A stretch of 64,000 bases of DNA. It comes from Chloroflexota bacterium (lineage in GTDB: Bacteria; Chloroflexota; Anaerolineae; UBA4142). The stretch is taken from positions 1 to 64,000 of the forward strand of contig JACRBM010000058.1 of the NCBI GenBank assembly GCA_016219275.1. Reading direction: 5' to 3'. How positions within the stretch are numbered: position 1 is the first letter of the stretch; each line of letters begins with the position of its first letter. Positions 9,280-35,051 of this stretch are shown one piece after another. Below the pieces are notes generated by a model that saw only the letters and a program-made list of their open reading frames with translations, was not told the origin of the DNA and made no database searches. A program made the position numbers and the translations under genes.

Positions 9280-11037
9280 ATGCGAATGACTAAACAATTC
9301 AGCCAGACCTTGCGCGACACACCATCCGAGGCGGAGGTCGCGAGCCATCAATTGCTTTTGCGCGCGGGCTATGTTCGACAACTCGGCGCGGGTATTTTCA
9401 GCGCGTTGCCATTCGCGCGCCGGTCGCTCACCAAAATCGAAAACATTATGCGCGATGAAATCAACGCGATGGGCGGTCAAGAGCTGACGATGCCGGTGAT
9501 TCATCCCGCTGATTTGTGGAAAGAGACCGGGCGCTGGTACGCGATTGGCGACGAGATGGGGCGCTTTACCGACCGCGGCGGACGCGAGATGGCGCTCGCG
9601 ATGACGCACGAAGAAGTCGTCGCCGATCTCGCACGCAAAGAGATTCGCTCGTACAAACAATTGCCCCAACTCATCTACCACATTCAAACGAAATGGCGCG
9701 ACGACCCGCGCCCGCGCGCGGGGCTGATTCGCGTGCGCGAGTTTACGATGCTCGACTCGTACTCGCTCGATGCGGACGACGCTGGGTTGGACGCGCAGTA
9801 CCGCGCGCACTATCAAGCGTACTTTAACATTTTCAATCGCTGTGCGCTCGACGCGATTGCAGTCAAAGCCGATGTCGGAATGATGGGTGGATCGCTGTCG
9901 CACGAGTACATGTATCTCACACCGATTGGCGAGGACACGTTGATGTTGTGCGACGCGTGCGGCTCTACCGCGAATCGCCAGGTCGCGCGTTTTCACAAAC
10001 CGCCCGCCGCGTCCGAAGCATCGTTGCCGCTCGAAAAAATCGCGACGCCGGATTGCAAAACGATTGACGCGCTCGCGCAACTGCTCAATATTCCAAAATC
10101 GAAAACCGCCAAAGCCGTGTTCTTGCTGGCGACAATCACGGAACAAGATCACGATGTCGAAAAATTTGTGTTCGCGGTTGTGCGCGGCGATATGGACGTG
10201 AACGAAACGAAACTCGCGAACGCGGTGCGAGCCAAAGATTTGCGTCCCGCGCGCGAAGACGAAATCCGCGCGACCGGCGCGACGCCGGGGTACGCCTCGC
10301 CCATTGGTTTACGCGATGTCATCGTCATCGTGGACGACGCGATTCCTGGGTCGCCGAATCTCGTCGCCGGCGCGAACGACGCGGGCTATCACTTGCTCAA
10401 CACGAATGTTCCGCGCGATTACGCGGCGAACCTCGTCACCGATATCGCGATTGCGAACGAGGGCGACGCGTGTCCGAATTGCGGCAACGCGTTGCGCGCC
10501 GCGCGCGGCGTCGAAGTCGGCAACATTTTCAAACTCGGCACACGTTACACGGAGGTGCTCGGCGCGCGTTATCTCGCGGCAGACAAACAACTCAAGCCGA
10601 TTTGGATGGGCTCGTACGGTATCGGCAGCGGGCGCTTGCTCGCGTGCATCGCGGAAGAACATCACGACGAGTACGGCTTGTGCTTGCCGATCACCGTCGC
10701 GCCGTATCAAGTTCATCTCGTCGCGCTCGGCAATGTCACCGCGCAAACCGAATCGGTGTACGCGCAACTGCGCGATGCCGGCATCGAGGTCTTGTTCGAC
10801 GACCGCGACGCGACGCCCGGCGTCAAGTTCAACGACGCGGATTTGATTGGCGTGCCCTTGCGTGTTACAATCAGCGAGCGTTCGCTGAAACAGAACAGCG
10901 CCGAGTTCAAGCGACGTACAAGCAAGGATCGCGTCAGCGTTCCGCTCGACGAAACCGTTGCACGCGTGCGCGCAGAAATCGCGGCGATGTTCGACGAGAT
11001 TCGCGCGCGCGTCGTACCAGTCGCATTCAAAGATTAA
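9280..11037 (+). CDS. proS: prolyl-tRNA synthetase, bacterial type with editing insertion
   Basis: A 585-residue class II synthetase that charges tRNA-Pro with proline. Motif 1 region: HQLLLRAGYVRQLGAGIFSALPFARRSL; motif 2: KWRDDPRPRAGLIRVREFTMLDSYS; motif 3: GSYGIGSGRLLACIAEE. Between motifs 2 and 3 (about residues 230-390) lies the YbaK-like insertion (SKTAKAVFLLA, NETKLANAV, DVIVIVDDAIPGSPNLVAGAN), which removes mischarged alanine in bacterial-type enzymes. The C-terminal anticodon-binding domain contains APYQVHLVALG and VLFDDRDATPGVKFNDADLIGVPLRV. TTTGGAG lies eight bases before the ATG. A second, structurally different prolyl-tRNA synthetase gene follows directly. Confidence 0.95.
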   Translation: MRMTKQFSQTLRDTPSEAEVASHQLLLRAGYVRQLGAGIFSALPFARRSLTKIENIMRDEINAMGGQELTMPVIHPADLWKETGRWYAIGDEMGRFTDRGGREMALAMTHEEVVADLARKEIRSYKQLPQLIYHIQTKWRDDPRPRAGLIRVREFTMLDSYSLDADDAGLDAQYRAHYQAYFNIFNRCALDAIAVKADVGMMGGSLSHEYMYLTPIGEDTLMLCDACGSTANRQVARFHKPPAASEASLPLEKIATPDCKTIDALAQLLNIPKSKTAKAVFLLATITEQDHDVEKFVFAVVRGDMDVNETKLANAVRAKDLRPAREDEIRATGATPGYASPIGLRDVIVIVDDAIPGSPNLVAGANDAGYHLLNTNVPRDYAANLVTDIAIANEGDACPNCGNALRAARGVEVGNIFKLGTRYTEVLGARYLAADKQLKPIWMGSYGIGSGRLLACIAEEHHDEYGLCLPITVAPYQVHLVALGNVTAQTESVYAQLRDAGIEVLFDDRDATPGVKFNDADLIGVPLRVTISERSLKQNSAEFKRRTSKDRVSVPLDETVARVRAEIAAMFDEIRARVVPVAFKD

Positions 11038-12567
<1,530 letters not shown>

Positions 12568-21732: not shown

Positions 21733-22593
21733 ATGTCCGTTGACCCGCAAATGATTCAACGCGCGATTGCCGGCATGTACGACGAATTGTCCGCGCGCTA
21801 TGAACGCGTCGTCGCGCCGGTCTATCGCCCGATGGCGAAACGATTGGTGCAGTTGATTGACTTGCGCCCCGGTTGGGTCGCGCTTGATGCCGGCGCCGGA
21901 ACGGGGTTGGTCGCGTTGCTCGCCGCGCCGCGCGTCGGCAAGACCGGCAGAATCATCGGCGTGGACGCGTCGGAGCAGATGCTCGCGTTCGCGCGCGTAC
22001 ACGCCGCGCAGTTCGGTTTTTCGCAGTGTGAGTTTCGGATTGGCGATCTCAATGCGCTCGATCTGCCGGAGGCGTCGTGCGACGCGGTGTTGTCACAATT
22101 CGCGTTGCATTACACCGATCCCGCGCGCAGTCTCGCCGAATTCTATCGCGTGCTCAAGCCGGACGGCATCCTCGCGCTGCAAATCTGGGCGATGGATTCG
22201 TCTGCGCCGCACAAGACGATGTACGACGTGCTGACGCCGTATCGTGCGAAAGAAGAAACGGACGTGTTGGCGCACTTGCGCGCGCAATCCACGCGCGCGT
22301 ATTTGTTTCGTCAAACGTTTGGGGCGGTAGATCAAATCACGCGCGCGGTTGAATTGGCGGGGTTTGAAAATGTAGACGCGCGCCAGGAACACTATCCGGC
22401 GCGCGTGGCTGATCGCGAGGCGTTTCTGGAGTTTGCGGATGCTTCGCCGTTATTGCACGCGGAGATCGCGGCTTTGCCGGCGGACGTGCGGACGCGTTAT
22501 CTCGACGCGGCGCGCGTGGCGCTTGAACGTTTTCAAGCGGCGAGCGGTTTCGCGTGGACGTTCCACACGCTTGCGCTCATCGCGCGCAAGTAA
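21733..22593 (+). CDS. UbiE-like SAM-dependent methyltransferase
   Basis: A 286-residue class I methyltransferase. Motif I is WVALDAGAGTGLVALLAAPRVGKTGRIIGVDASEQML and the motif IV-VI region is ASCDAVLSQFALHYTDPARSLAEFYRVLKPDGILALQIWAMD, closest to the UbiE/Methyltransf_11 group. Substrate unknown. A similar protein is encoded at 34236-35051. It starts 10 bases after the preceding gene and ends two bases before the convergent pilin gene. Confidence 0.88.
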   Translation: MSVDPQMIQRAIAGMYDELSARYERVVAPVYRPMAKRLVQLIDLRPGWVALDAGAGTGLVALLAAPRVGKTGRIIGVDASEQMLAFARVHAAQFGFSQCEFRIGDLNALDLPEASCDAVLSQFALHYTDPARSLAEFYRVLKPDGILALQIWAMDSSAPHKTMYDVLTPYRAKEETDVLAHLRAQSTRAYLFRQTFGAVDQITRAVELAGFENVDARQEHYPARVADREAFLEFADASPLLHAEIAALPADVRTRYLDAARVALERFQAASGFAWTFHTLALIARK

Positions 22594-22595
22594 GC

Positions 22596-22748
22596 TTAGT
22601 TGGGCCAGGCGCTCGTGACCTGACTGAATAAATTACCTACTTGCCCACCAAAGACCGTGACCAGAATGACCAGCACAATAATGACGAGCAATAAAATCAA
22701 GGCGTACTCAACTAATCCTTGTCCGCATTCTATTCCCCCCCGATCCAT
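22596..22748 (-). CDS. Flp-type pilin, 50 residues
   Basis: A very small pilin. After a short basic/acidic leader (MDRGGIECG) comes GQGLVEYALILLLVIIVL, the class III leader and hydrophobic spine of Flp/Tad pilins: cleavage after Gly, with the conserved Glu-Tyr at +4/+5 of the mature protein. The mature peptide would be about 41 residues, ending FGGQVGNLFSQVTSAWPN. It would polymerise into a Tad-type pilus for adhesion. The tad machinery is not in this window. The frame is open from 22874, but GGAGG seven bases before the ATG at 22748 fixes the start; a CGGTCAG/CTGACCG hairpin (22766-22785) lies in its leader. Confidence 0.88.
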   Translation of the reverse strand: MDRGGIECGQGLVEYALILLLVIIVLVILVTVFGGQVGNLFSQVTSAWPN

Positions 22749-22765
22749 ACGCGTTCCTCCCGAGC

Positions 22766-22785
22766 CGGTCAGTCTTCGCTGACCG
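22766..22785 (-). promoter_or_regulatory. hairpin in the pilin mRNA leader
   Basis: CGGTCAG (22766-22772) pairs with CTGACCG (22779-22785) over a 6-base loop. It lies just upstream of the GGAGG ribosome site of the pilin gene and might stabilise that abundant mRNA. Confidence 0.5.
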
Positions 22786-22803
22786 CACCGCCCCAGACAC
22801 GAT

Positions 22804-22832
22804 TTGGAAAAAAAGTTTGTCGTGTTTATAAT
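22804..22832 (+). promoter_or_regulatory. sigma-70 promoter of the membrane glycosyltransferase operon
   Basis: TTGGAA (22804-22809) and TATAAT (22827-22832) are spaced by 17 bases. It overlaps the opposing pilin promoter. It precedes the ATG at 22873 by about 35 bases of leader. Confidence 0.78.
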
Positions 22833-22856
22833 ACTCTTTGTGAAAGCGTTCGTCAA
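22828..22856 (-). promoter_or_regulatory. sigma-70 promoter of the pilin gene
   Basis: On the minus strand TTGACG (22851-22856) and TATTAT (22828-22833) are spaced by 17 bases. Its -10 box shares five base pairs with the -10 box of the plus-strand promoter, so the two polymerases should exclude one another. Confidence 0.72.
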
Positions 22857-22872
22857 TCGAACAAGAGTACTC

Positions 22873-25194
22873 ATGGGCTATCGTGACCGCTGGGTCTACG
22901 CACTATTGGCGGCAAGCGCCTTTGCGTTGTATTTTCGCACGATGTCGCCGACCGTGCTGGATGGCGATAGCGGCGAATACCAGCACATGGCGTACTACCT
23001 GGGCGTGCCGCATTCAACCGGCTATCCGCTGTATATTCTCCTCGCTAAACTTTTCACTTGGCTCCCGGTTGGCGACGTCGCGTATCGCGTCAACCTGTTT
23101 TCGGTTGTCGCCGCCGCGCTCGTTCCCCCCGTCGTCTACGCGATCGCGCGCCGGCTGATTCGTCAACGCGTCCCGGCATTGCTTGCCGCGTTCGCGTTGA
23201 TCGTCACGCCTTCGCTGTGGGGCGCGGCGGCGCAAGCCGAAGTGTACGCGTTGCATTTGCTGATCGGCGCGCTCGCGCTGTTCTGTGCGTTGCGGTGGTA
23301 TCAAGACGGCGCGCCGCGCGATTTTTACGCGCTTGCACTAACGTGCGGATTCGGCTTGACACACCATCGCGTCTTTGTGTTTCTTGCGCCCGCGCTCGCG
23401 CTGATAGTGTGGTTCAATCGCGCGCGCGTCACGCGCGCGATGTTTGGACGTGGCGCGTTGCTCGTTCTGTTGCCGCTCATCTTGTACGCGTACATTCCGA
23501 TTCGCGCGAATCAGTTGATCGCGCAACAAAGCCCGGTGAACTGGGATTTGTACCCGCGCGAAGACGCGATGGTCAAGGGTACCGTGAGCGCGTACTATAA
23601 CAACACGCTGTACGGATTTTTCAACCTCGTCACCGGTTTCGACAATCGCAACAAACTTGGCTTCAAGTCGCCGCTCGACGAAGCCGACCGGCTCAATCTC
23701 GCGACGACGTTGTTGCTCGATCAGTTCACGCTTGTCGGCATTGTGATCGCCGCGCTCGGTGCATGGCAATCGTTCAAACGGAATCGCCGCGAATTTCTGT
23801 TTCTGCTCGTTGCCGGTGCGGGCGTTGGTTTCATCGCGATATATTTGCGTGGAACATCCACGGTTTACTATTTTTCGCTCGCGTATCTAGTGGTGGCATT
23901 GTGGATTGGTTTTGGCGCGGATGCGATAATCCGGTTCGCCGCGCGCGTGCCGATCAAACATTTCACGCGCGCGCCCGCGCTCGCGCTATCGCTCGTGCCG
24001 TTGACGGTTCTCGTTCTGCATTTCTCCGAAATGGACCAGAGTCAGTACTATCTCGCGCGCGACAACGCGCAAGCCGTGTTGCGCGACAACCTCGCGCCGA
24101 ACGCAGTCGTCATCGCGCCCTGGGAAGTGTCCGAGCCGATGCGCTATTATCAGTTTGTCGAAAACCAGCGTCCCGATTTGCTCGTCGTCAACATCAGCCC
24201 CATCTGGCCCCAGTTCGAGCGCCTCATGAAGCGCGCGCGCGAGTTGAATCGTCCGTTTTATTTTGTCGAGTTCAATCCCGAACTGCGCTCCACGCCCGGA
24301 CCGCGTTCCGTCCAAGCCGTGCCGCTGCCGCTGTTGAACGCGCCGCAACCGCGTTACGCGTTGCACGACGCGCGCATCGTTCCCGAAGTGGACATCCTGG
24401 GTTACGATCTCGATCCCGATCCGCCACAGCCGGGCAAGCCGACGCGCGTCCTGGTTTACTATCGCGCGAATGCACGGATGTATCCGATGTACTCGTCGCT
24501 ATTGGGCGTGAATGATCTCACCGGCAAACCCTGGAGCGATTACCCTGGTTTTCCCGCGTCGTTCTATTTTCCGACGTATCGCTGGCAAGCCGGCGATTAT
24601 TATCGCGACGCGTTCACGGTGAATTTGCCGGCGGACGCGCCCGCCGGTTTGTACAATCTCGATTTGTATTGGTACGTGTACGATCTCGACACGCGCAAGC
24701 CGGATTACAACCGCGAGTCGCGCGTCGCGCTCGGCGAAATTCGCGTTGGCGATTTCACCACGGCGAACATATCCCACGCGAATATCATGCGCGTGGGTCC
24801 GGCGATTGCATTCCTGGGTTGGAGCAGCGCGCCCGCGACAAACTCGAACACGCTCGACCTCGCGCGCGGACAATCGCTCGCGCTCGATCTGTACTGGCGC
24901 GCGGTTCGCGAGCCAAACGAAGCGTACACCGTGTTCGTCCATCTTGTCGACGCGAACGGACGCGTAGTCGCGGACGCGGACGCGCCGCCGCTGAGCGGCT
25001 TGTATCCGACGAATCGTTGGCGCACGGGCGAGCCACTCCGCGACCGGCACACGCTCAAAATTCCGGCGGACCTTGCGCCAGGCAATTACACGATTGCGAT
25101 TGGCATGTATCTTCCCGCGACCGGCGCGCGGTTGCCAATAGGTATAACGAACGTCGCCGACAGTCTTGGATTGACCCAGGTCGTCGTCCGATGA
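22873..25194 (+). CDS. DUF2723-type multi-pass membrane protein with two C-terminal beta modules
   Basis: A 773-residue protein. The first 370 residues or so hold about ten membrane segments and the DUF2723 features LDGDSGEYQHMAYYLGVPHSTGYPLYILLAKLF, AQAEVYALHLL and THHR, a family related to polyprenyl-phosphate-sugar-dependent (GT-C fold) glycosyltransferases. A soluble section follows (APWEVSEPMRYYQ). Two beta-rich modules end the chain, the second reading YTVFVHLVDANGRVV, LYPTNRWRTGEPLRDRH and LAPGNYTIAIGMYLP. Similar modules end three of the next four proteins. The frame opens at 22804 inside the promoter, so the ATG before GYRDRW is the start. The downstream gene overlaps by ATGA. Confidence 0.82.
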   Translation: MGYRDRWVYALLAASAFALYFRTMSPTVLDGDSGEYQHMAYYLGVPHSTGYPLYILLAKLFTWLPVGDVAYRVNLFSVVAAALVPPVVYAIARRLIRQRVPALLAAFALIVTPSLWGAAAQAEVYALHLLIGALALFCALRWYQDGAPRDFYALALTCGFGLTHHRVFVFLAPALALIVWFNRARVTRAMFGRGALLVLLPLILYAYIPIRANQLIAQQSPVNWDLYPREDAMVKGTVSAYYNNTLYGFFNLVTGFDNRNKLGFKSPLDEADRLNLATTLLLDQFTLVGIVIAALGAWQSFKRNRREFLFLLVAGAGVGFIAIYLRGTSTVYYFSLAYLVVALWIGFGADAIIRFAARVPIKHFTRAPALALSLVPLTVLVLHFSEMDQSQYYLARDNAQAVLRDNLAPNAVVIAPWEVSEPMRYYQFVENQRPDLLVVNISPIWPQFERLMKRARELNRPFYFVEFNPELRSTPGPRSVQAVPLPLLNAPQPRYALHDARIVPEVDILGYDLDPDPPQPGKPTRVLVYYRANARMYPMYSSLLGVNDLTGKPWSDYPGFPASFYFPTYRWQAGDYYRDAFTVNLPADAPAGLYNLDLYWYVYDLDTRKPDYNRESRVALGEIRVGDFTTANISHANIMRVGPAIAFLGWSSAPATNSNTLDLARGQSLALDLYWRAVREPNEAYTVFVHLVDANGRVVADADAPPLSGLYPTNRWRTGEPLRDRHTLKIPADLAPGNYTIAIGMYLPATGARLPIGITNVADSLGLTQVVVR

Positions 25195-27499: not shown

Positions 27500-29503
27500 A
27501 TGTTGCGCTTTCGCAATTGGATACCTTTTCTGCTCATCGCGTCCTTCGCGATTTTTTCGCGCGTGTACGCGATAGATCGGATTCCGCCCGGCTTGTTCGG
27601 CGACGAAGCGGTGGAAGGACTCGACGCGCTCGACGTGATGGCGGGCAATTTCTTCATCTGGTTTCACGCGCACCTGGGGCGCGAGCCGATCTACGTGTAC
27701 CTCACCGCGCTCTCCTACCAGCTCTTTGGCGTCACCGCACTCGCAACGCGCTTGCCCGCGCTGATCGCCGGATTGCTTACGCTGCCTGCCGCGTTCTTAT
27801 TCACCCGCGAGTGGGCGAGCGCGATTTTCTCGCGCGAGCGCGCAACGCGGCTGGCATGGCTTGCGACCGCGCTCGTCGCGATTTCGTTCTGGCACATCGA
27901 GATGACGCGCAACGCGCATCGCGACACGCTCTTGCCGCTCGTCGAGGCGCTGGGCTACTGGCTGTTGTGGCGCGCGTTTCGCACGCGCGACTGGAAGCCG
28001 TTCGCCGCGTCTGGCGCGATCCTGGGTCTCGCGGTATACACGTACTCGCCCGGGCGATTCGTCGGCGTGTTCGTCGCGCTCTTCGTCGCGGTCGAGTTCA
28101 TCATTGCGCGTGTGTCCGCCAACCGCCGACCACCGGCGACAGACGATTACACCCGGTCAGCAGTCGGCGGTCGGCGGTCGGTCATCGGTATCTTCGTCGC
28201 GGGAATCGCGGCGCTCGTCGTTATGCTTCCGCTCGCGATCTATTTCGCGCAGAATCCGGCGCAATTCGTGCGACGCTTCGACAGCACGTCGGTTTTCGAT
28301 CAAGGTGCGCCTGTGCTCGCGTTGGCGACGAGTGTCGTCGGTAACCTCGCGCAATTCGTCATTCCCGGCGCGGGCTATCAGAGCTGGCACTATAATTTGC
28401 CCGGCAAACCGGTTTTCGATTTGCTCCTCGCACCCTGGTTTCTCGCGGGACTTGTCCTCGCGGTTGCGCGCGCGCGGCAATCCCAGTATCGTTTTTTGCT
28501 CTTGTGGTTCGTGGTGATGCTCGCGCCCGCGTTTCTCACCGACGATATGATTCCGAAAGGCGTGCGCGTCCTGGGTGTCGCGCCCGGCGTGTTCATTATT
28601 CCCGCGCTCGCGATGGATTGGCTGTGGGAACGCGCGCTCGACCGATCGTTGCTTGGCGCGATTCAGACCAAGAATCAAGCGCGTTTCAATCGGATGGAAC
28701 CGGTGTCGCCGCAACCGTTCGCCATCGTCATCGTGTTCGCGCTCATCGCGATCTCGTTCGTCGGCAGTGCGGCGTGGACGGCGTACGATTATTTTGTCGC
28801 GTGGGCGAACGCGGAACCCGTGCCGCTCAGGTTCGACGCGGACTATGCCGAGTTGGCGCAATTCGTTTTGCGCGCGCCCACCGATCAACCGATTTACATT
28901 TCGGCGGAAACGTATCGCCACCCGACTTACATGCTTCTCGGCAGGCACATCTCCACGTCGAACTATTTGCAGCGTGCGACGCGCATCCGCGAATTCGACG
29001 CGCGCACGTTGCTCGTCACGCGCGCGCACGATGCGAACGCGCTCTACGTGATCGTGCGCGAAAACAAACCGCCGTTCGATTGGCTCACGCGCGTCGCGTC
29101 CCAGGTCGAGTCGGTGAGTGAAGGTACATACCTTGCGGCGTATCGCTATGGAAATTTCGGATCGCCGCCGCGCGCGCTCGACATCGCGTTCAATCCGTTT
29201 TTGAAACTGACGGGCGTCGCACGGTTCGACGACGAGCCGGCCGGCATCGTGTTGTACTGGCAAGTCACCGCGCTGCCGGATAATCGCGATGACATTCAAA
29301 CAACGCTCACGCTCGCCGACACGAACGGCAAAACTCTCGCGCAAAAGAATCAGCGTTTCGGCTATCCGCCGCTCGAATGGCAAATCGGCGACGTGATTGC
29401 CGAATGGTACGAGTTTGAATCGCTCGACAACGCAACCCAGTTTTCACTCGAAATGACACGCGGCAAATCCAAATGGCAATCGCCTCTCCTTTCCGCAAAA
29501 TGA
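27500..29503 (+). CDS. GT39/ArnT-like membrane glycosyltransferase
   Basis: A 667-residue GT-C-type protein. The first outer loop has the acidic active-site pattern PPGLFGDEAVEGLDALDVMAGNFFIWFHAHLGREPIYVYLTALSYQLFG, where Asp-Glu is followed by the GREP motif, as in GT39/PMT-like enzymes that use polyprenyl-phosphate sugars. About ten membrane segments follow, then a soluble tail ending in a degenerate copy of the shared module (LKLTGVARFDDEPAGIVLYWQVTALPDNRDDIQTTLTL). A stretch around 28115-28185 (NRRPPATDD, then SAVGGRRSVIG) is translated repeat DNA between membrane segments. ATG at 27500; the TTG nine bases earlier is less likely. Confidence 0.82.
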   Translation: MLRFRNWIPFLLIASFAIFSRVYAIDRIPPGLFGDEAVEGLDALDVMAGNFFIWFHAHLGREPIYVYLTALSYQLFGVTALATRLPALIAGLLTLPAAFLFTREWASAIFSRERATRLAWLATALVAISFWHIEMTRNAHRDTLLPLVEALGYWLLWRAFRTRDWKPFAASGAILGLAVYTYSPGRFVGVFVALFVAVEFIIARVSANRRPPATDDYTRSAVGGRRSVIGIFVAGIAALVVMLPLAIYFAQNPAQFVRRFDSTSVFDQGAPVLALATSVVGNLAQFVIPGAGYQSWHYNLPGKPVFDLLLAPWFLAGLVLAVARARQSQYRFLLLWFVVMLAPAFLTDDMIPKGVRVLGVAPGVFIIPALAMDWLWERALDRSLLGAIQTKNQARFNRMEPVSPQPFAIVIVFALIAISFVGSAAWTAYDYFVAWANAEPVPLRFDADYAELAQFVLRAPTDQPIYISAETYRHPTYMLLGRHISTSNYLQRATRIREFDARTLLVTRAHDANALYVIVRENKPPFDWLTRVASQVESVSEGTYLAAYRYGNFGSPPRALDIAFNPFLKLTGVARFDDEPAGIVLYWQVTALPDNRDDIQTTLTLADTNGKTLAQKNQRFGYPPLEWQIGDVIAEWYEFESLDNATQFSLEMTRGKSKWQSPLLSAK

Positions 29504-32226
29504 ATCACACATCACGCAACACGCAATACGCAACACGCAATACGCAACACGCACTTGTCCTTGTGTGTTATCTCGCGCTTGCACTCGTGATGACGTACCC
29601 ACTCGTCACGCAGTTTGGCGATCACGTGCCCGGCACGACGACTTGGTCTATGGACGAGTACGGTTACGTGTGGAACAACTGGTGGTTCAAGCACGCGGTT
29701 TTCGATCGCGCGCAGAATCCATTCGAAACGAATTTCATTCTCTATCCGATTGGCGCGTCGCTCGTGCTCTATGCGTTCACGCTGTTGCACGTTCTAGTCG
29801 GCTTGCCAATTCAATTCGCGTTCGGCTTGATTCCGGCGAGCAACGCGGAATTGTTGTTCTCGTTCGTCGTCGGCGGCTATGGAATGTTTTTGCTCTCACG
29901 CTATTTGCTTCGCACGACACGAATTACGAATTACCAATTACCAATTTCGCACTACGCCGCGTTCATCGCCGGCGCGCTCTTTGCGTTCTCCTCGAATCGT
30001 TTTGTCTACGCGTCGCTGGGACATTACAATGTCGTCGCGACCGAGTGGATTCCGTTCTACATTTTGTTTCTCATCAAGACGGTGCGCGAGCCGCGTTGGA
30101 AAAATGCGTGGCTTGCCGGACTGTTCGCCGCGTTCGCGCTGTACGTCGAGACGACGACCGGCGTGTTGATGCTCTTGTTCACGTTGCTGTATCTGTTGGT
30201 CGCGGGGCGCGCCGCGTGGCAACGCGCCACGCTCGCGCGGCTCGCCGTGCTCGGCGCGACGGCGACGGTGTTGTTCGCGCCCTTGCTTGTTCCGACGATC
30301 AACGAAATCGTGAACAGTACGTACGCCTTGCCCGGCTGGGGGCACGCGGAAAAATTGCTCGTTGACTTACTCGGCTTTTTTTCGCCGACGAGTTTGCATC
30401 CATTGAATCGCGGCTGGGTGCAGGAACTCGATCACGTGCGGCAGGGCAACGCGCGATTCGTGGACGTAAACACCGCGTTCCTGGGTTACGCGACGCTCGC
30501 GCTCGCGCTCGTCGCGGCGCTGCGTTTCTGGAAAACGTTGCGCGTGTGGGCGATCAGCGCGCTTGCGTTTGCGATCCTGAGTCTCGGTCCGCTGTTGAAC
30601 ATCGCCGGTCAATCGCGTTTCAATTTCGACGGGTTGGACGTGACGTTCCCGATGCCGTTCTTGTTGTTGCACTATATTCCGATCATCAAAGAAAATCGCG
30701 TGCCGAATCGGTTTAGCATTCTCGTCATGCTCTCGCTTGCGATCCTCGTCGCGTTCGCCGTCGCGTGGATTCTTGCACGAGTTTCAAGTTCCAAGTTTCA
30801 GGTTACTCGATGGCGTCTGTTGGCTGTTCGCTGTTTACTGTTGACTGTCCTACTGTTCGAGCACTCCGCTATCCCGCTCCCGCTCACCGATGCGCGCGTG
30901 CCGGAAGTGTACGCGCAGATCGCGCGCGAGCCGGGCGATTTTGCCGTGCTCACTCTGCCGCTCGGGTGGCGCAACTCGTTCGGACAACTTGGCGCGGAGG
31001 ACGCGCGCGTGCAGTACTATCAAAACGCGCATCGCAAATTTATTTTCCCGGCGAACATCCAGCGCAATCCGCCGTACTTGTTCGAGTACTTTGATCGCGC
31101 GCCGATTTTTCACTCGCTCACCGAGATCGAATTCTATCGCGAGGTGTTGCCCGAAACGCGCGCGCGCGATAAGGCGATTGCGCCGGCATTGATGGCGTTC
31201 TTCGACGTGCGGTACGTGGTGATTCACCCGGCGATTCCGGGGCGTCCGCCGTACAGCGACACGCGCGGCGCGGTCGTCGAATACATCGAGAATGTGTTGC
31301 CGCTCGGCGAAAAAATCTTCGAGCGCGATGGTGTGCTCGCGTATCGCGTGAAGCAAGCCGCGTTGCCGGCGCGCCAAGAGATTCGCTTTGGCGCGGATGC
31401 CGCGCAGCTCTATCAAGCCGAGGGCTGGGATCGCGATGAAGTGCTCGCGGGCGAGCCGGCGAATTGGGCAACTCAGCGTCAAGCGCGCGTGGTGTTTCCC
31501 TTGCGCGAGGTGAGCGATTATCAGTTGACCGTGCGCGCATTGCCGTTCGCGACCGCGCAAACGATGGAACTCGTCATTAACGATCAGCCGATTCAAAAGT
31601 TTGGAATGAGAACGGGCTGGGAGAATTATACGGTCACACTTCCCGCGCGTGCGTTGCATTCCGGCGTCAACACACTCGCCTTGCGTTTTGCGAATCTCGC
31701 GCGACCGCGCGACGTGACGCCGCCGAATTTCGCGATAGGCGCGACCGGCGTGACGAGTCCGGTCGAGATCGTCGCGCGCGCGGAAGAACGCGCGTCCATC
31801 CGCGTGAATGGCAAAGAAATCGCGCCGCAGAAAACCGGCTATAACGTCGTCGTGCTTGATCCGCGCACCGGCGCGGTGGACGACGCGCGCGCGTTTGACA
31901 CGATCAACGACCGCGTTGGCTCGCGCGCGTTCACCGATTTCATCGCGCAGATTCCGAACGGGCAGATCGTCGCGGTTGTGTCGCAGGACGCGGTTGCCGC
32001 GAACCTGGGTGATCGCGCCGCGGCGGCGTTTCAGTTGATCGGCGGGCAGGTGGACATTCGCGCGAATCCCACGCGCACGCACGCGCTCATCGGCGTGAAA
32101 GGCGCGCCGCCCGGTTCCGCGCTCGAACAATCGCAAGACGGTGCGTCGTTCGTTTCCGTCGGACGCAATCCAGACACGCGCACACTTGCCGCGGCGGTGA
32201 GCGTGATGGTGATTGAGAAGAAATGA
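29500..32226 (+). CDS. large multi-pass membrane protein, glycosyltransferase-like, with soluble C-terminus
   Basis: A 908-residue protein. About 12 membrane segments span the first 440 residues, with MTYPLVTQFGDHVPGTTTWSMDEYGYVWNNWWFKHAVF as first outer loop (acidic Asp-Glu in SMDEYGY), then a long soluble region of beta-rich modules (residues 440-908). The overall plan is that of YfhO-like or GT-C membrane transferases, but I cannot name a family. The N-terminus (HTSRNTQYATRNTQHAL) and two loops at 29919-29950 (RITNYQLPIS) and 30781-30850 (SSSKFQVT, CLLLTVLLF) are repeat DNA read in frame. The ATG overlaps the previous stop (ATGA) and the next gene does the same with its stop. Confidence 0.72.
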   Translation: MNHTSRNTQYATRNTQHALVLVCYLALALVMTYPLVTQFGDHVPGTTTWSMDEYGYVWNNWWFKHAVFDRAQNPFETNFILYPIGASLVLYAFTLLHVLVGLPIQFAFGLIPASNAELLFSFVVGGYGMFLLSRYLLRTTRITNYQLPISHYAAFIAGALFAFSSNRFVYASLGHYNVVATEWIPFYILFLIKTVREPRWKNAWLAGLFAAFALYVETTTGVLMLLFTLLYLLVAGRAAWQRATLARLAVLGATATVLFAPLLVPTINEIVNSTYALPGWGHAEKLLVDLLGFFSPTSLHPLNRGWVQELDHVRQGNARFVDVNTAFLGYATLALALVAALRFWKTLRVWAISALAFAILSLGPLLNIAGQSRFNFDGLDVTFPMPFLLLHYIPIIKENRVPNRFSILVMLSLAILVAFAVAWILARVSSSKFQVTRWRLLAVRCLLLTVLLFEHSAIPLPLTDARVPEVYAQIAREPGDFAVLTLPLGWRNSFGQLGAEDARVQYYQNAHRKFIFPANIQRNPPYLFEYFDRAPIFHSLTEIEFYREVLPETRARDKAIAPALMAFFDVRYVVIHPAIPGRPPYSDTRGAVVEYIENVLPLGEKIFERDGVLAYRVKQAALPARQEIRFGADAAQLYQAEGWDRDEVLAGEPANWATQRQARVVFPLREVSDYQLTVRALPFATAQTMELVINDQPIQKFGMRTGWENYTVTLPARALHSGVNTLALRFANLARPRDVTPPNFAIGATGVTSPVEIVARAEERASIRVNGKEIAPQKTGYNVVVLDPRTGAVDDARAFDTINDRVGSRAFTDFIAQIPNGQIVAVVSQDAVAANLGDRAAAAFQLIGGQVDIRANPTRTHALIGVKGAPPGSALEQSQDGASFVSVGRNPDTRTLAAAVSVMVIEKK

Positions 32227-32285
32227 AATTCGTAATTCGTAATTCGGAATTCACAATTCACAATTCAAATTACAAATTACAAATT
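32223..32285. repeat. tandem AATTCGT/AATTACAA dyad encoding a protein N-terminus
   Basis: Tandem units AATTCGT, AATTCACAATTCACAATTC and AATTACAAATTACAA run from the overlap of two genes into the next reading frame. They supply about 20 N-terminal residues (FVIRNSEFTIHNSNYKLQI) of the DUF2723-type protein. Confidence 0.8.
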
Positions 32286-34160
32286 ACGCTTGCTCTCGCG
32301 TTCGCCGCGTTTGTACTCTATCTTCGCACGCTTGCGCCGGATGTGTTGGACGCGGACAGCGGTGAGTTTCAGTTTGCCGCGTGGAATTTTGGTTTTGTGC
32401 ACCCGACCGGCTACCCGCTCTTTTTGATTTTGGGCGGCGCGTTCCAACATCTCGTCCCGCTGGGCAATCCCGCGTTTCGCCTCAATCTGTTCAACGCGAT
32501 TCTCGCCGCGTTGACGATTGGCGTGCTTTACCTGGCGATGTACGCGATCACGAAGCAACGCGTTGCGTCGGTCATCGCCGCCGCGTCGTTCGCCGTGACG
32601 CGCACGTTTTGGTACGACGCGAGCGCGGTCGAGGTGTACGCACTGAACGCGTTGTTCATCACAATTCTCGTTTGCATCGCGTTGCAATGTCAAGCCAAAC
32701 TCTCCGCACGCAAATTCGCTTTCTTCTGTTTCACCTTCGGACTCGCGCTCACGCACCATCGTTCGATGCTCTTGTGGATTCCGGCATTCGCGTTGTTCTT
32801 TGCCATTGTCGCGGATCAGTTCCGCATCCCAACGAAAAATCTCGTCCGACCGGCGCTACGCTTTGGAGTGTATTTCCTGGTTCCCTTTTTGCTCTATTTG
32901 TACATTCCGCTGCGCGCACCGGCATCGCCGTACGCGACGCTTGCGCTTGCGCCTGGACGTGATCTCGTCTTGTTCGACAACTCGTTCAGCGGATTCGTCA
33001 ACTATTTCCTGGGTCGCACGTTTCAAGGCGAGTTGCGCTGGGATGCGACGAGCATCGTGCGCCTTGCCGCGTTGCCGCAATTATTTCTCGATCAGTTCGG
33101 CGCGCTCGGCGTCGCGTTGGGCATCCTGGGATTTATCGCGCTGTTGGCGCGTCGCGCGTGGGCGCTTGTTGCGTTGACGTTGACCGCGTTCGCCGCGACG
33201 ATTTTATTCGCGTCGTTCTATCACATCGGCGACATCGCGCACTATTACATTCCGGCGTACCTCGTGTGGACGATTTGGTTCGGTGCCGGACTCGCCGTCA
33301 TCCCAGATTTAATTTCACGCACACTTGCACCGCACGCAAATGCAGGTGTCACGCATCCCGCATCCCGCATCCCGCAATACGCAATATACTTCGCGTACCT
33401 TCTCGCCGCCGCCTGCCTCCTCTACCAACTCACGCTCAACCTGCCGCTCGCCGACCGAAGCCGCGAAACGCAACCGCGCGAACAATGGACGCGCCTGGTC
33501 GCCGCGCCGATTCCGGCGAACGCGATTTTGATTTCGAACGACCGCGATGAAATGATGCCGCTCTGGTACATGCAATACGTAGAAGGCGCGCGGCGCGATG
33601 TGCTCGGACTGTTTCCGCTAATCACGCCCGACCGCGCGAACATCGCGCAGTTGACCGACAGCGTGCTCGACGCGAACCGTCCGATCTATTTCATCAAGCC
33701 GATGCCGGGAATGGAAATCAAGTACGATTTGCAGAGATTTGATTATTCACTCGTCCAAGTTCTCGGCGCGGCAAATCACACACCGCGAGTCGCAAGCAAC
33801 GCGGTGATCGGCGAGCGCGTGCGTGTGCTCGGTTACGATCTCGCGCGCGAGGGGAACATGTTGCGCGTCACGCTGTACTTGCAATCGCGCGTGAAACTCG
33901 CGAGTAATTACACGGCGTTCGCGCAATTGGACGGCTCACGCGGCGGCAAGATCGCGCAAGGCAACGATCATCAAGTCGGCGGCGAATTTTATCCGAGTTC
34001 GATGTGGGCGGTCGGCGAAATTCTGCGCGACGCACACACGATCGAGTTGCCGCCCGACGCGATGCCCGGCACCTATCGTTTGTTCGTCGGCATGTATCGC
34101 CAACCGGATTTCGATCCACTCGGCGATCCCGTCGAAGTCGGCTGGGTGGATTTGCAGTAG
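32223..34160 (+). CDS. DUF2723-type membrane protein with C-terminal beta module
   Basis: A 645-residue paralog of the first gene in this operon: LDADSGEFQFAAWNFGFVHPTGYPLFLILGGAF, ASAVEVYALNALF and LTHHRSMLLWIPAF match its DUF2723 features. About 11 membrane segments precede a soluble tail whose last 110 residues contain the shared module (NYTAFAQLDGSRGGKIAQGNDH, FYPSSMWAVGEILRDAHTIELPPDAMPGTYRLFVGMYRQ). The first 20 residues come from the repeat at its start, so the native start might be internal, but the ATG overlaps the previous stop and no better one is near. A loop at 33340-33390 (THPASRIPQYAIY) is also repeat-derived. It closes the operon. Confidence 0.82.
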   Translation: MKFVIRNSEFTIHNSNYKLQITLALAFAAFVLYLRTLAPDVLDADSGEFQFAAWNFGFVHPTGYPLFLILGGAFQHLVPLGNPAFRLNLFNAILAALTIGVLYLAMYAITKQRVASVIAAASFAVTRTFWYDASAVEVYALNALFITILVCIALQCQAKLSARKFAFFCFTFGLALTHHRSMLLWIPAFALFFAIVADQFRIPTKNLVRPALRFGVYFLVPFLLYLYIPLRAPASPYATLALAPGRDLVLFDNSFSGFVNYFLGRTFQGELRWDATSIVRLAALPQLFLDQFGALGVALGILGFIALLARRAWALVALTLTAFAATILFASFYHIGDIAHYYIPAYLVWTIWFGAGLAVIPDLISRTLAPHANAGVTHPASRIPQYAIYFAYLLAAACLLYQLTLNLPLADRSRETQPREQWTRLVAAPIPANAILISNDRDEMMPLWYMQYVEGARRDVLGLFPLITPDRANIAQLTDSVLDANRPIYFIKPMPGMEIKYDLQRFDYSLVQVLGAANHTPRVASNAVIGERVRVLGYDLAREGNMLRVTLYLQSRVKLASNYTAFAQLDGSRGGKIAQGNDHQVGGEFYPSSMWAVGEILRDAHTIELPPDAMPGTYRLFVGMYRQPDFDPLGDPVEVGWVDLQ

Positions 34161-34170
34161 AAACGGCATG

Positions 34171-34217
34171 ACCTCACCCTGCCCTCCCCTTTGCAAGGGG
34201 AGGGTTAGGGAGGGGTG
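34171..34217. repeat. CCCTCCCCTT hairpin repeat
   Basis: CCCTCCCCTT (34182-34191) pairs with AAGGGGAGGG (34195-34204) over TGC. Outer CCTCACCCT and AGGGAGGGGTGA extend the symmetry. It is the familiar CTCACCCTGCCCTCCCC-type dispersed repeat and lies just past the five-gene operon. Confidence 0.85.
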
Positions 34218-34235
34218 ATTTCAAGTGAGTGTTTG

Positions 34236-35051
34236 ATGTCCGCCCCTATCGTAGCCACAAAAAAAATCATCGAAGGAATTTTTGATCGCGCGGCGGTGCA
34301 GTACGATCACACCGGTCCGCGCGTGTTCGAACAACTCGGCGCGCGGCTCGTCGAGTTGATGCCGCTCGCGCCCGGCGCGCAAGTCCTCGATGTTGCGACG
34401 GGACGCGGCGCGGTGCTCGTCCCAGCCGCGCAACGCGTCGGCGCGACCGGGCATGTCGTCGGGATTGACTTGGCGCAAGGGATGCTCGACGCGACCGCGC
34501 GCGACATCGCGCGACACAACGTCGAACTGCGAAAGATGGATGCCGAGCAACTCGAATTTGCGGACGCGTCGTTCGACGCGGTCACCTGCGCGTTCGCGCT
34601 TTTTTTCTTTCCCGCGATGGATGTGGCTTTGCGCGAAATGATTCGCGTGTGCAGGTCCCGCGGATGCTTGGGCGTTTCGTTGTTCGGCGACTCGCCCGCG
34701 CCGTTTCGTCCCGCGTGGAGCATTCTCGCCGAACAGATTCAGGCGTATGGCGTCGCGATGCGAATGCCGCAATGCGTCGTCTACAATTCGGAGATCGTGC
34801 GCGGGTTGTTGACCGAGGCGGGCTGGACGCGCGTCGAAATGGCAAGCGAGACGCACGAATTCGTTTACGCGACCGAAGAAGATTGGTGGCAGTTTCAATT
34901 CACGCTTGGAACGCGCGCCGCGCTCGAGCAATTGGACGACGCAACGCGCGTGCGTTTTCGCGACGAGTATCTCGCAAAACTACGACCGCTGTATCGCGCT
35001 GACGGATTGCATTTGCCGGTGTCGGTGATTTACGCGCGCGCGTTCAAGTGA
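34236..35051 (+). CDS. UbiE-like SAM-dependent methyltransferase
   Basis: A 271-residue class I methyltransferase: KIIEGIFDRAAVQYDHTGPRVFEQLGARLVELMPL then motif I QVLDVATGRGAVLVPAAQRVGATGHVVGIDLAQGMLDATARDI, MDAEQLEFADASFDAVTCAFALFFFPAM. The GIFDRAAxxYD start is common in a group of UbiE/COQ5-like enzymes of unknown substrate. It resembles the protein at 21733-22593. The frame can be read from a GTG at 34215; the ATG at 34236 begins the conserved part. A 13-base inverted repeat follows the stop. Confidence 0.87.
   Translation: MSAPIVATKKIIEGIFDRAAVQYDHTGPRVFEQLGARLVELMPLAPGAQVLDVATGRGAVLVPAAQRVGATGHVVGIDLAQGMLDATARDIARHNVELRKMDAEQLEFADASFDAVTCAFALFFFPAMDVALREMIRVCRSRGCLGVSLFGDSPAPFRPAWSILAEQIQAYGVAMRMPQCVVYNSEIVRGLLTEAGWTRVEMASETHEFVYATEEDWWQFQFTLGTRAALEQLDDATRVRFRDEYLAKLRPLYRADGLHLPVSVIYARAFK

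Follow-up and report, generated by a model that had tools for sequence, protein, structure and literature searches.

Introduction

Bidirectional promoters are defined by experimentally mapped divergent transcription start sites that lie 7–25 bp apart. The commonest start spacing among those described is 18 bp, according to the excerpts available of two reports on E. coli and Salmonella (Warman et al. 2026, PMC12825309; PMC10268837). TA-led genes form another described class: they are leaderless, and a TATAAT-like signal stands shortly ahead of their start codon. The accessible part of one survey predicts them in 4 of 12 Chloroflexi genomes, where they make up 4.7% of genes on average (PMC3160421). 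Here we describe a short stretch of DNA between two divergent genes that resembles both classes. With the bidirectional promoters of E. coli and Salmonella, as far as the excerpts describe them (PMC12825309, PMC10268837), it shares overlapping -10 boxes, predicted starts 18–19 bp apart, the -7/-11 pairing and divergent genes; unlike them, it is known from sequence alone, its -35 box is recognisable on both sides, and one of its mRNAs is probably leaderless and holds a -35 box in its codons. With the TA-led genes, in the accessible part of their description (PMC3160421), it shares a TATAAT about 12–13 bp before the start codon and the predicted absence of a leader, and it differs from them in that its -10 region would also serve a divergent gene. 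The arrangement itself is of a known type, the bidirectional promoter, and the leaderless geometry is its most interesting part.

Overlapping promoter boxes between two divergent genes

The window, by which we mean the whole stretch of 64,000 nt that was analysed, comes from a Chloroflexota bacterium, and the features of the locus are as follows.

22596–22748, minus strand: pilin-like (Flp type) gene, ATG at 22748, 50 aa; Pfam PF04964 at E 0.00063, with homologs in the family
22756–22760, minus strand: Shine-Dalgarno site GGAGG of the pilin-like gene, by direct reading
22804–22809, plus strand: forward -35 box TTGGAA, by direct reading and scan; TTGGCG in most relatives
22821, minus strand: predicted reverse transcription start, placed from the -10 position
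22827–22832, plus strand: forward -10 box TATAAT, by direct reading and scan
22833–22828, minus strand: reverse -10 box TATTAT, sharing five base pairs (22828–22832) with the forward -10 box
22839–22840, plus strand: predicted forward transcription start, placed from the -10 position, at the GTG or one base before it
22856–22851, minus strand: reverse -35 box TTGACG, inside codons 4–6 of the glycosyltransferase gene
22840–25194, plus strand: TMEM260-like membrane glycosyltransferase, GTG at 22840, 784 aa; Pfam PF11028 at E 2.4e-30 on 22873–25191

On each strand the -35 and -10 boxes are 17 bp apart and the promoter scores 10/12, by direct reading and by scan; the original prediction had named these boxes, the 17-base spacings and the five-bp overlap of the -10 boxes, and all of them were found exactly where it had placed them. 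It had also called the promoters ‘face-to-face divergent’, of which the second word holds, with transcription predicted to run rightward from about 22839/22840 and leftward from 22821, and the first does not if it is taken to mean convergent. The predicted starts are 18–19 bp apart, and if transcription begins at 22839 and 22821, the -7 and -11 positions of both strands fall on the same two base pairs, 22832 and 22828, in reciprocal coincidence. The locus thus has, at its predicted starts, the overlapping -10 boxes with reciprocal -7/-11 positions by which bidirectional promoters are recognised.

Overlapping -10 pairs in which both promoters score at least 10/12 occur once in the window, and this pair is the one; none was found in 40 dinucleotide shuffles of the window or in 3000 shuffles of the local 152 bp. 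At a looser criterion of 9/12, the window holds two pairs against a shuffle mean of 0.275 (11 of the 40 shuffles had at least one). The box pair is therefore beyond chance expectation. The overlap of the -10 boxes is nearly free, because the symmetry of TATAAT and a following A provide it; the information lies in the pair of -35 boxes at 17-bp spacing. A search of 22500–23000 against Rfam returned nothing up to E 1, and the 152-bp region had no match in a plasmid collection at E 1e-5.

The left-hand product is called pilin-like because its match to Flp_Fap (PF04964), at 19.9 bits, is below the curated cut-off of 32.2, and because an NCBIfam search gave no match up to E 0.01. Flp/Fap prepilins carry a G or A followed by a segment with E5 and Y6 and then a hydrophobic helix; by eye, the window protein and the homologs neighbouring the glycosyltransferase in relatives are short and have this G/A, this E5 Y6 segment and this helix. 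T2SSE-family ATPase matches over the cut-off number five in the genome and none on the contig of the window. Active pilus transcription has been reported in Anaerolinales and linked to aggregation, and the locus is unmentioned in the part of that text examined (PMC4877987). Just upstream of the pilin Shine-Dalgarno site lies a perfect 7-bp hairpin, CGGTCAG/CTGACCG, at 22766–22785 on the minus strand. The window's pilin leader as a whole showed no significant structure against shuffles, and hairpins were rejected as a conserved feature of pilin leaders, of which only 2 of 8 fold better than shuffles at p < 0.05.

The glycosyltransferase is followed in the 3′ direction on the same strand by a row of genes for a PTPS_related/PMT_2 protein, a PMT_2 protein, an ILEI-domain protein and a second TMEM260-like protein. 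A literature search on DUF2723 together with bacteria found nothing. Within this row the ILEI domain (E 2.6e-16) is located near the C-terminus of a 917-aa protein (29473–32223, plus strand), and the second TMEM260-like protein (32223–34157, plus strand) is followed by a second relative of the methyltransferase (34236–34727, plus strand, 33% identity), so that the pair at 32223–34727 echoes the methyltransferase and glycosyltransferase neighbours at 21733–25194. Elsewhere in the window, tandem prolyl-tRNA-synthetase-like genes (9280–11034 and 11068–12564, plus strand) carry a tRNA_edit domain in one and a ProRS-C_1 domain in the other, and they look like two different types side by side.

Start of the glycosyltransferase gene

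GTG follows TATAAT after seven bases in 12 of 12 orthologs of the family, and in the sister family it follows after six (2/6) or seven bases (4/6) and is in frame in all six; in both families the start codon keeps the short, fixed spacing from the -10 box that characterises leaderless genes. In all 12 family orthologs this GTG opens a reading frame that continues uninterrupted through the gene (773–802 aa), and the distance from GTG to the next conserved motif takes five different lengths. In 10 of the 12 no other in-frame ATG, GTG or TTG occurs up to codon 14, and none of the other 11 orthologs has an ATG corresponding to the one at 22873 (codon 12). Judged from this comparison, the gene very probably starts at GTG 22840, seven bases past the -10 box, a start that the original prediction had not noticed; hence its mRNA is most likely leaderless and the pilin -35 box would be inside codons 4–6. 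Against this start, a crude codon model rates the first 11 codons as non-coding, at -0.13 per codon compared with 0.35 per codon from 22873 onward; such a score is expected of codons shaped by a promoter, but it is also compatible with translation from 22873 in the source genome.

The idea that leaderless starts are common in the source genome was considered and rejected, with weak enrichment at best. In a crude scan of 0.83 Mb, TATAAT was found 7 nt before starts in five exact cases, the highest of 41 distances and with the glycosyltransferase included; allowing up to one mismatch, there were 15 cases at 7 nt and up to 14 at other distances. A separate count of TATAAT before starts, in which the reading frames used excluded the glycosyltransferase, showed no enrichment. 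The 18-base pattern TTTATAATAN6GTG occurs once in the source genome, at the locus, and its reversed control also once.

Conservation of the boxes and of the divergent neighbour

The family search covered 14 genomes including the source genome, with an ortholog threshold of E 1e-40 or better, and an ortholog of the glycosyltransferase was found in 12 of them (G003 and G013 have none). Ten of the relatives have named records, all of them metagenome bins, under the labels Anaerolineales, Anaerolineae, Anaerolinea, Candidatus Aquidulcis or Chloroflexi. Both -10 boxes are invariant in these orthologs (forward TATAAT and reverse TATTAT, each 12/12). The reverse -35 box, at exactly 17 bp, has 5–6 of 6 matches in all 12 (mean 5.75), and the forward -35 box at 17 bp matches TTGACA at 3–5 of 6 positions (mean 4.0). 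In the sister family of the same order, represented by six orthologs (G014–G019), the forward -10 box is TATAAT in 6/6 and the reverse is CATTAT in 6/6, and at 17 bp the mean number of -35 matches is 1.17 of 6 for the reverse box and 2.0 for the forward box. Conservation of the forward -10 box thus reaches further than that of the reverse promoter: the former is present in both families, the reverse boxes in one. This comparison of two families counts as one split on the tree and not as independent trials. No pilin match was found beside the sister-family gene in the five loci searched, and for G019, with about 200 upstream bases, no pilin match was found on the contig.

In 8 of the 12 family orthologs a pilin-like gene stands directly beside the glycosyltransferase gene in divergent orientation, and in G004 the contig ends there. 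In the other three (G008, G009 and G011) the neighbour is another protein, with several GAF domains in G008 and G011; in G009, where the contig ends inside the gene, what is present is the initial portion of a protein related to that of G008 (57% identity). The GAF proteins at the pilin-side promoter are large (L134, 2989–5640, minus strand, in G008; L135, 3070–6222, minus strand, in G011), with four and five GAF-domain stretches respectively, and a kinase domain is absent from their Pfam matches up to E 1e-4. The gene order in G008 is the GAF gene, a pilin-like gene directly behind it and then the methyltransferase, which is the order of the window plus the GAF gene; in G011 no pilin match was found within the 6.5 kb examined. 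The reverse promoter boxes are also present in the three genomes that have the GAF gene as first neighbour. In a tree of 18 orthologs, several forks of which are weak, these three genomes group together (92/94) inside the genomes with a pilin neighbour, and the GAF gene was therefore probably inserted between the promoter and the pilin gene. The gene pair and both putative promoters are conserved in the family, and the comparative support for them is strong. Together with the Pfam matches, this conservation backs the original proposal of one promoter region for a pilin-like gene and a glycosyltransferase-like row.

A model of transcription from the shared region

We consider it quite probable that the region is a sigma-70-type bidirectional promoter with a leaderless rightward and a leadered leftward pilin mRNA. 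Two-way transcription start from one short stretch is very probable. What the sequences show is where the boxes lie, that they are conserved, that their distance to GTG is fixed and that the sister family lacks the reverse boxes; the use of both boxes, the exact starts and leaderless translation are what we infer. RNA polymerase would bind one symmetrical -10 region in either orientation and produce two divergent mRNAs with starts about 18–19 bp apart. The rightward mRNA would be leaderless, with its 5′ end no more than about 2 nt away from the GTG of the TMEM260-like glycosyltransferase, and the leftward pilin mRNA would have a leader of about 73 nt with a Shine-Dalgarno site. Because the forward gene would have no leader, the reverse -35 box would be placed within codons 4–6, where codon choice seems to be held in part by the promoter. 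Points against this model are the forward -35 box, with only 3–5 of 6 matches in the family and 0–3 at 17 bp in the sister family, the weak enrichment of TATAAT 7 nt before starts in the scanned 0.83 Mb, and the rank of codons 4–6 within the gene (below).

As to regulation, largely independent basal expression in both directions seems most likely by analogy, and competition would arise only if one side were strongly activated. The original prediction had proposed a built-in switch instead, in which polymerase on one gene excludes the other, so that pilus and surface glycan alternate. The shared -10 DNA cannot be bound both ways at once (PMC12825309), and with the reverse promoter of the relatives near consensus, occupancy could exceed that of the E. 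coli examples. In the available excerpts of the E. coli study, the partner was repressed only upon substantial activation of one side, activators tending to repress the other direction; at all five bidirectional promoters tested there, basal activity was insufficient for competition, and a weakened promoter in one direction left the opposite one largely unaffected (PMC12825309). This speaks against a built-in switch, for which moreover no regulator or signal was identified at the locus; the pilin-like protein and the glycosyltransferase could equally be needed together, and co-expression of the two surface functions is at least as likely as exclusion. Hence we regard the switch as unlikely, and it is the least unlikely of the alternatives to the bidirectional promoter with independent basal expression.

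A putative -35 box inside codons 4–6

The six bases of the reverse -35 box are divided among three codons: the third base of codon 4, all of codon 5 and two bases from codon 6. At codon 5, 11 of the 12 orthologs have GTC and G001 has TTC; GTC accounts for 44% of the valine codons of the gene, although two more of the 28 valine columns contain nothing but GTC. The third base of codon 4 is T in 10 of the 12, even though the encoded residue varies. When codons were resampled synonymously by the usage of each gene, a procedure that ignores relatedness, none of 20000 draws reached the 69 of 72 matches to TTGACA observed at codons 4–6, against a mean of 55.8. Compared with 744 triplets of the same alignment, a control in which each other site picks its own best consensus and which therefore favours the controls, codons 4–6 rank 5th by z and 22nd by excess, suggesting that shared ancestry accounts for part of the codon signal.

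This modest rank within the gene is one of the points in favour of a second alternative, in which only the forward leaderless promoter would operate, the reverse boxes would arise incidentally from the symmetry of TATAAT and from the conserved V-N-R-T N-terminus, and the pilin gene would be transcribed from elsewhere. TATAATA yields TATTAT on the opposite strand for free, and valine-asparagine at residues 5–6 is conserved in the glycosyltransferase; but the reverse -35 box keeps its exact 17-bp spacing and is a perfect TTGACA in 9 of 12, the T that ends codon 4 persists though the residue varies, and the sister family retains the forward -10 box and not the reverse boxes, which makes a by-product slightly less probable to us than the switch. 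Least probable, by a small step further, is that the ATTTGG... and TTGTCAAtCgaACaA blocks are transcription-factor operators as much as -35 boxes and the region mainly regulatory, since, even though conservation extends past the -35 hexamers on both sides and the forward TTGGCG is nearly invariant as a mediocre match to TTGACA, each block is exactly 17 bp from a -10 box in 12/12, the right-hand one is also coding, and no regulator was identified at the locus.

For the bidirectional promoter, the comparison of codons gives moderate support to a promoter constraint on codons 4–6. A stronger claim, a dual code in which the gene's own bidirectional promoter forces the -35 box of the partner into codons 4–6 and so partly dictates x-V-N among the initial residues of a membrane enzyme, may equally be right or wrong. 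If it is true, the constraint would be shared by every leaderless gene whose bidirectional promoter has an 18-bp spacing and a far-side -35 box.

The arrangement in other genomes of the class

The pattern TATAATA-N6-RTG-N8-TGTCAA was found in 15 of 298 genomes of the class and its reversed control in none. Eight of the 15 matches are the glycosyltransferase locus in the family, of which the set contained 13 genomes (G010 was not among them); the source genome, G001 and G008 have an imperfect reverse -35 box and therefore escape the exact pattern, and G003 and G013 have no ortholog. The other seven matches lie elsewhere, and the frame from RTG is 2–14 aa long in five of them and 74 and 87 aa in two, which had no Pfam match. 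Among the 298 genomes, the leaderless and bidirectional combination is thus convincingly present at this locus only. A literature search for leaderless genes with bidirectional or overlapping divergent promoters, judged on titles only, gave no title describing such an arrangement.

L141, L143 and L146, which belong to other families of the class, have a promoter-like stretch, TATAATAGCACAAATGTTCTAATTTGTCAA, from position 1501 when read in match orientation; its sequence is the same in L141 as in L146, and that of L143 is similar. Part of it, AGCACAAATGTTCT, is flanked by a -10 box on one side and a reverse -35 box on the other, and presumably resembles a LexA-type operator.

Implications

These results establish no new regulatory principle. 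For an uncultured branch of the Chloroflexota, they describe a putative bidirectional promoter that is supported by comparison across genera and not by one start-site map, and whose reverse direction is present with either a pilin or a GAF neighbour and is not kept in the sister family. From the leaderless geometry one would expect N-terminal codons to be constrained, which may be checked in organisms rich in leaderless genes.
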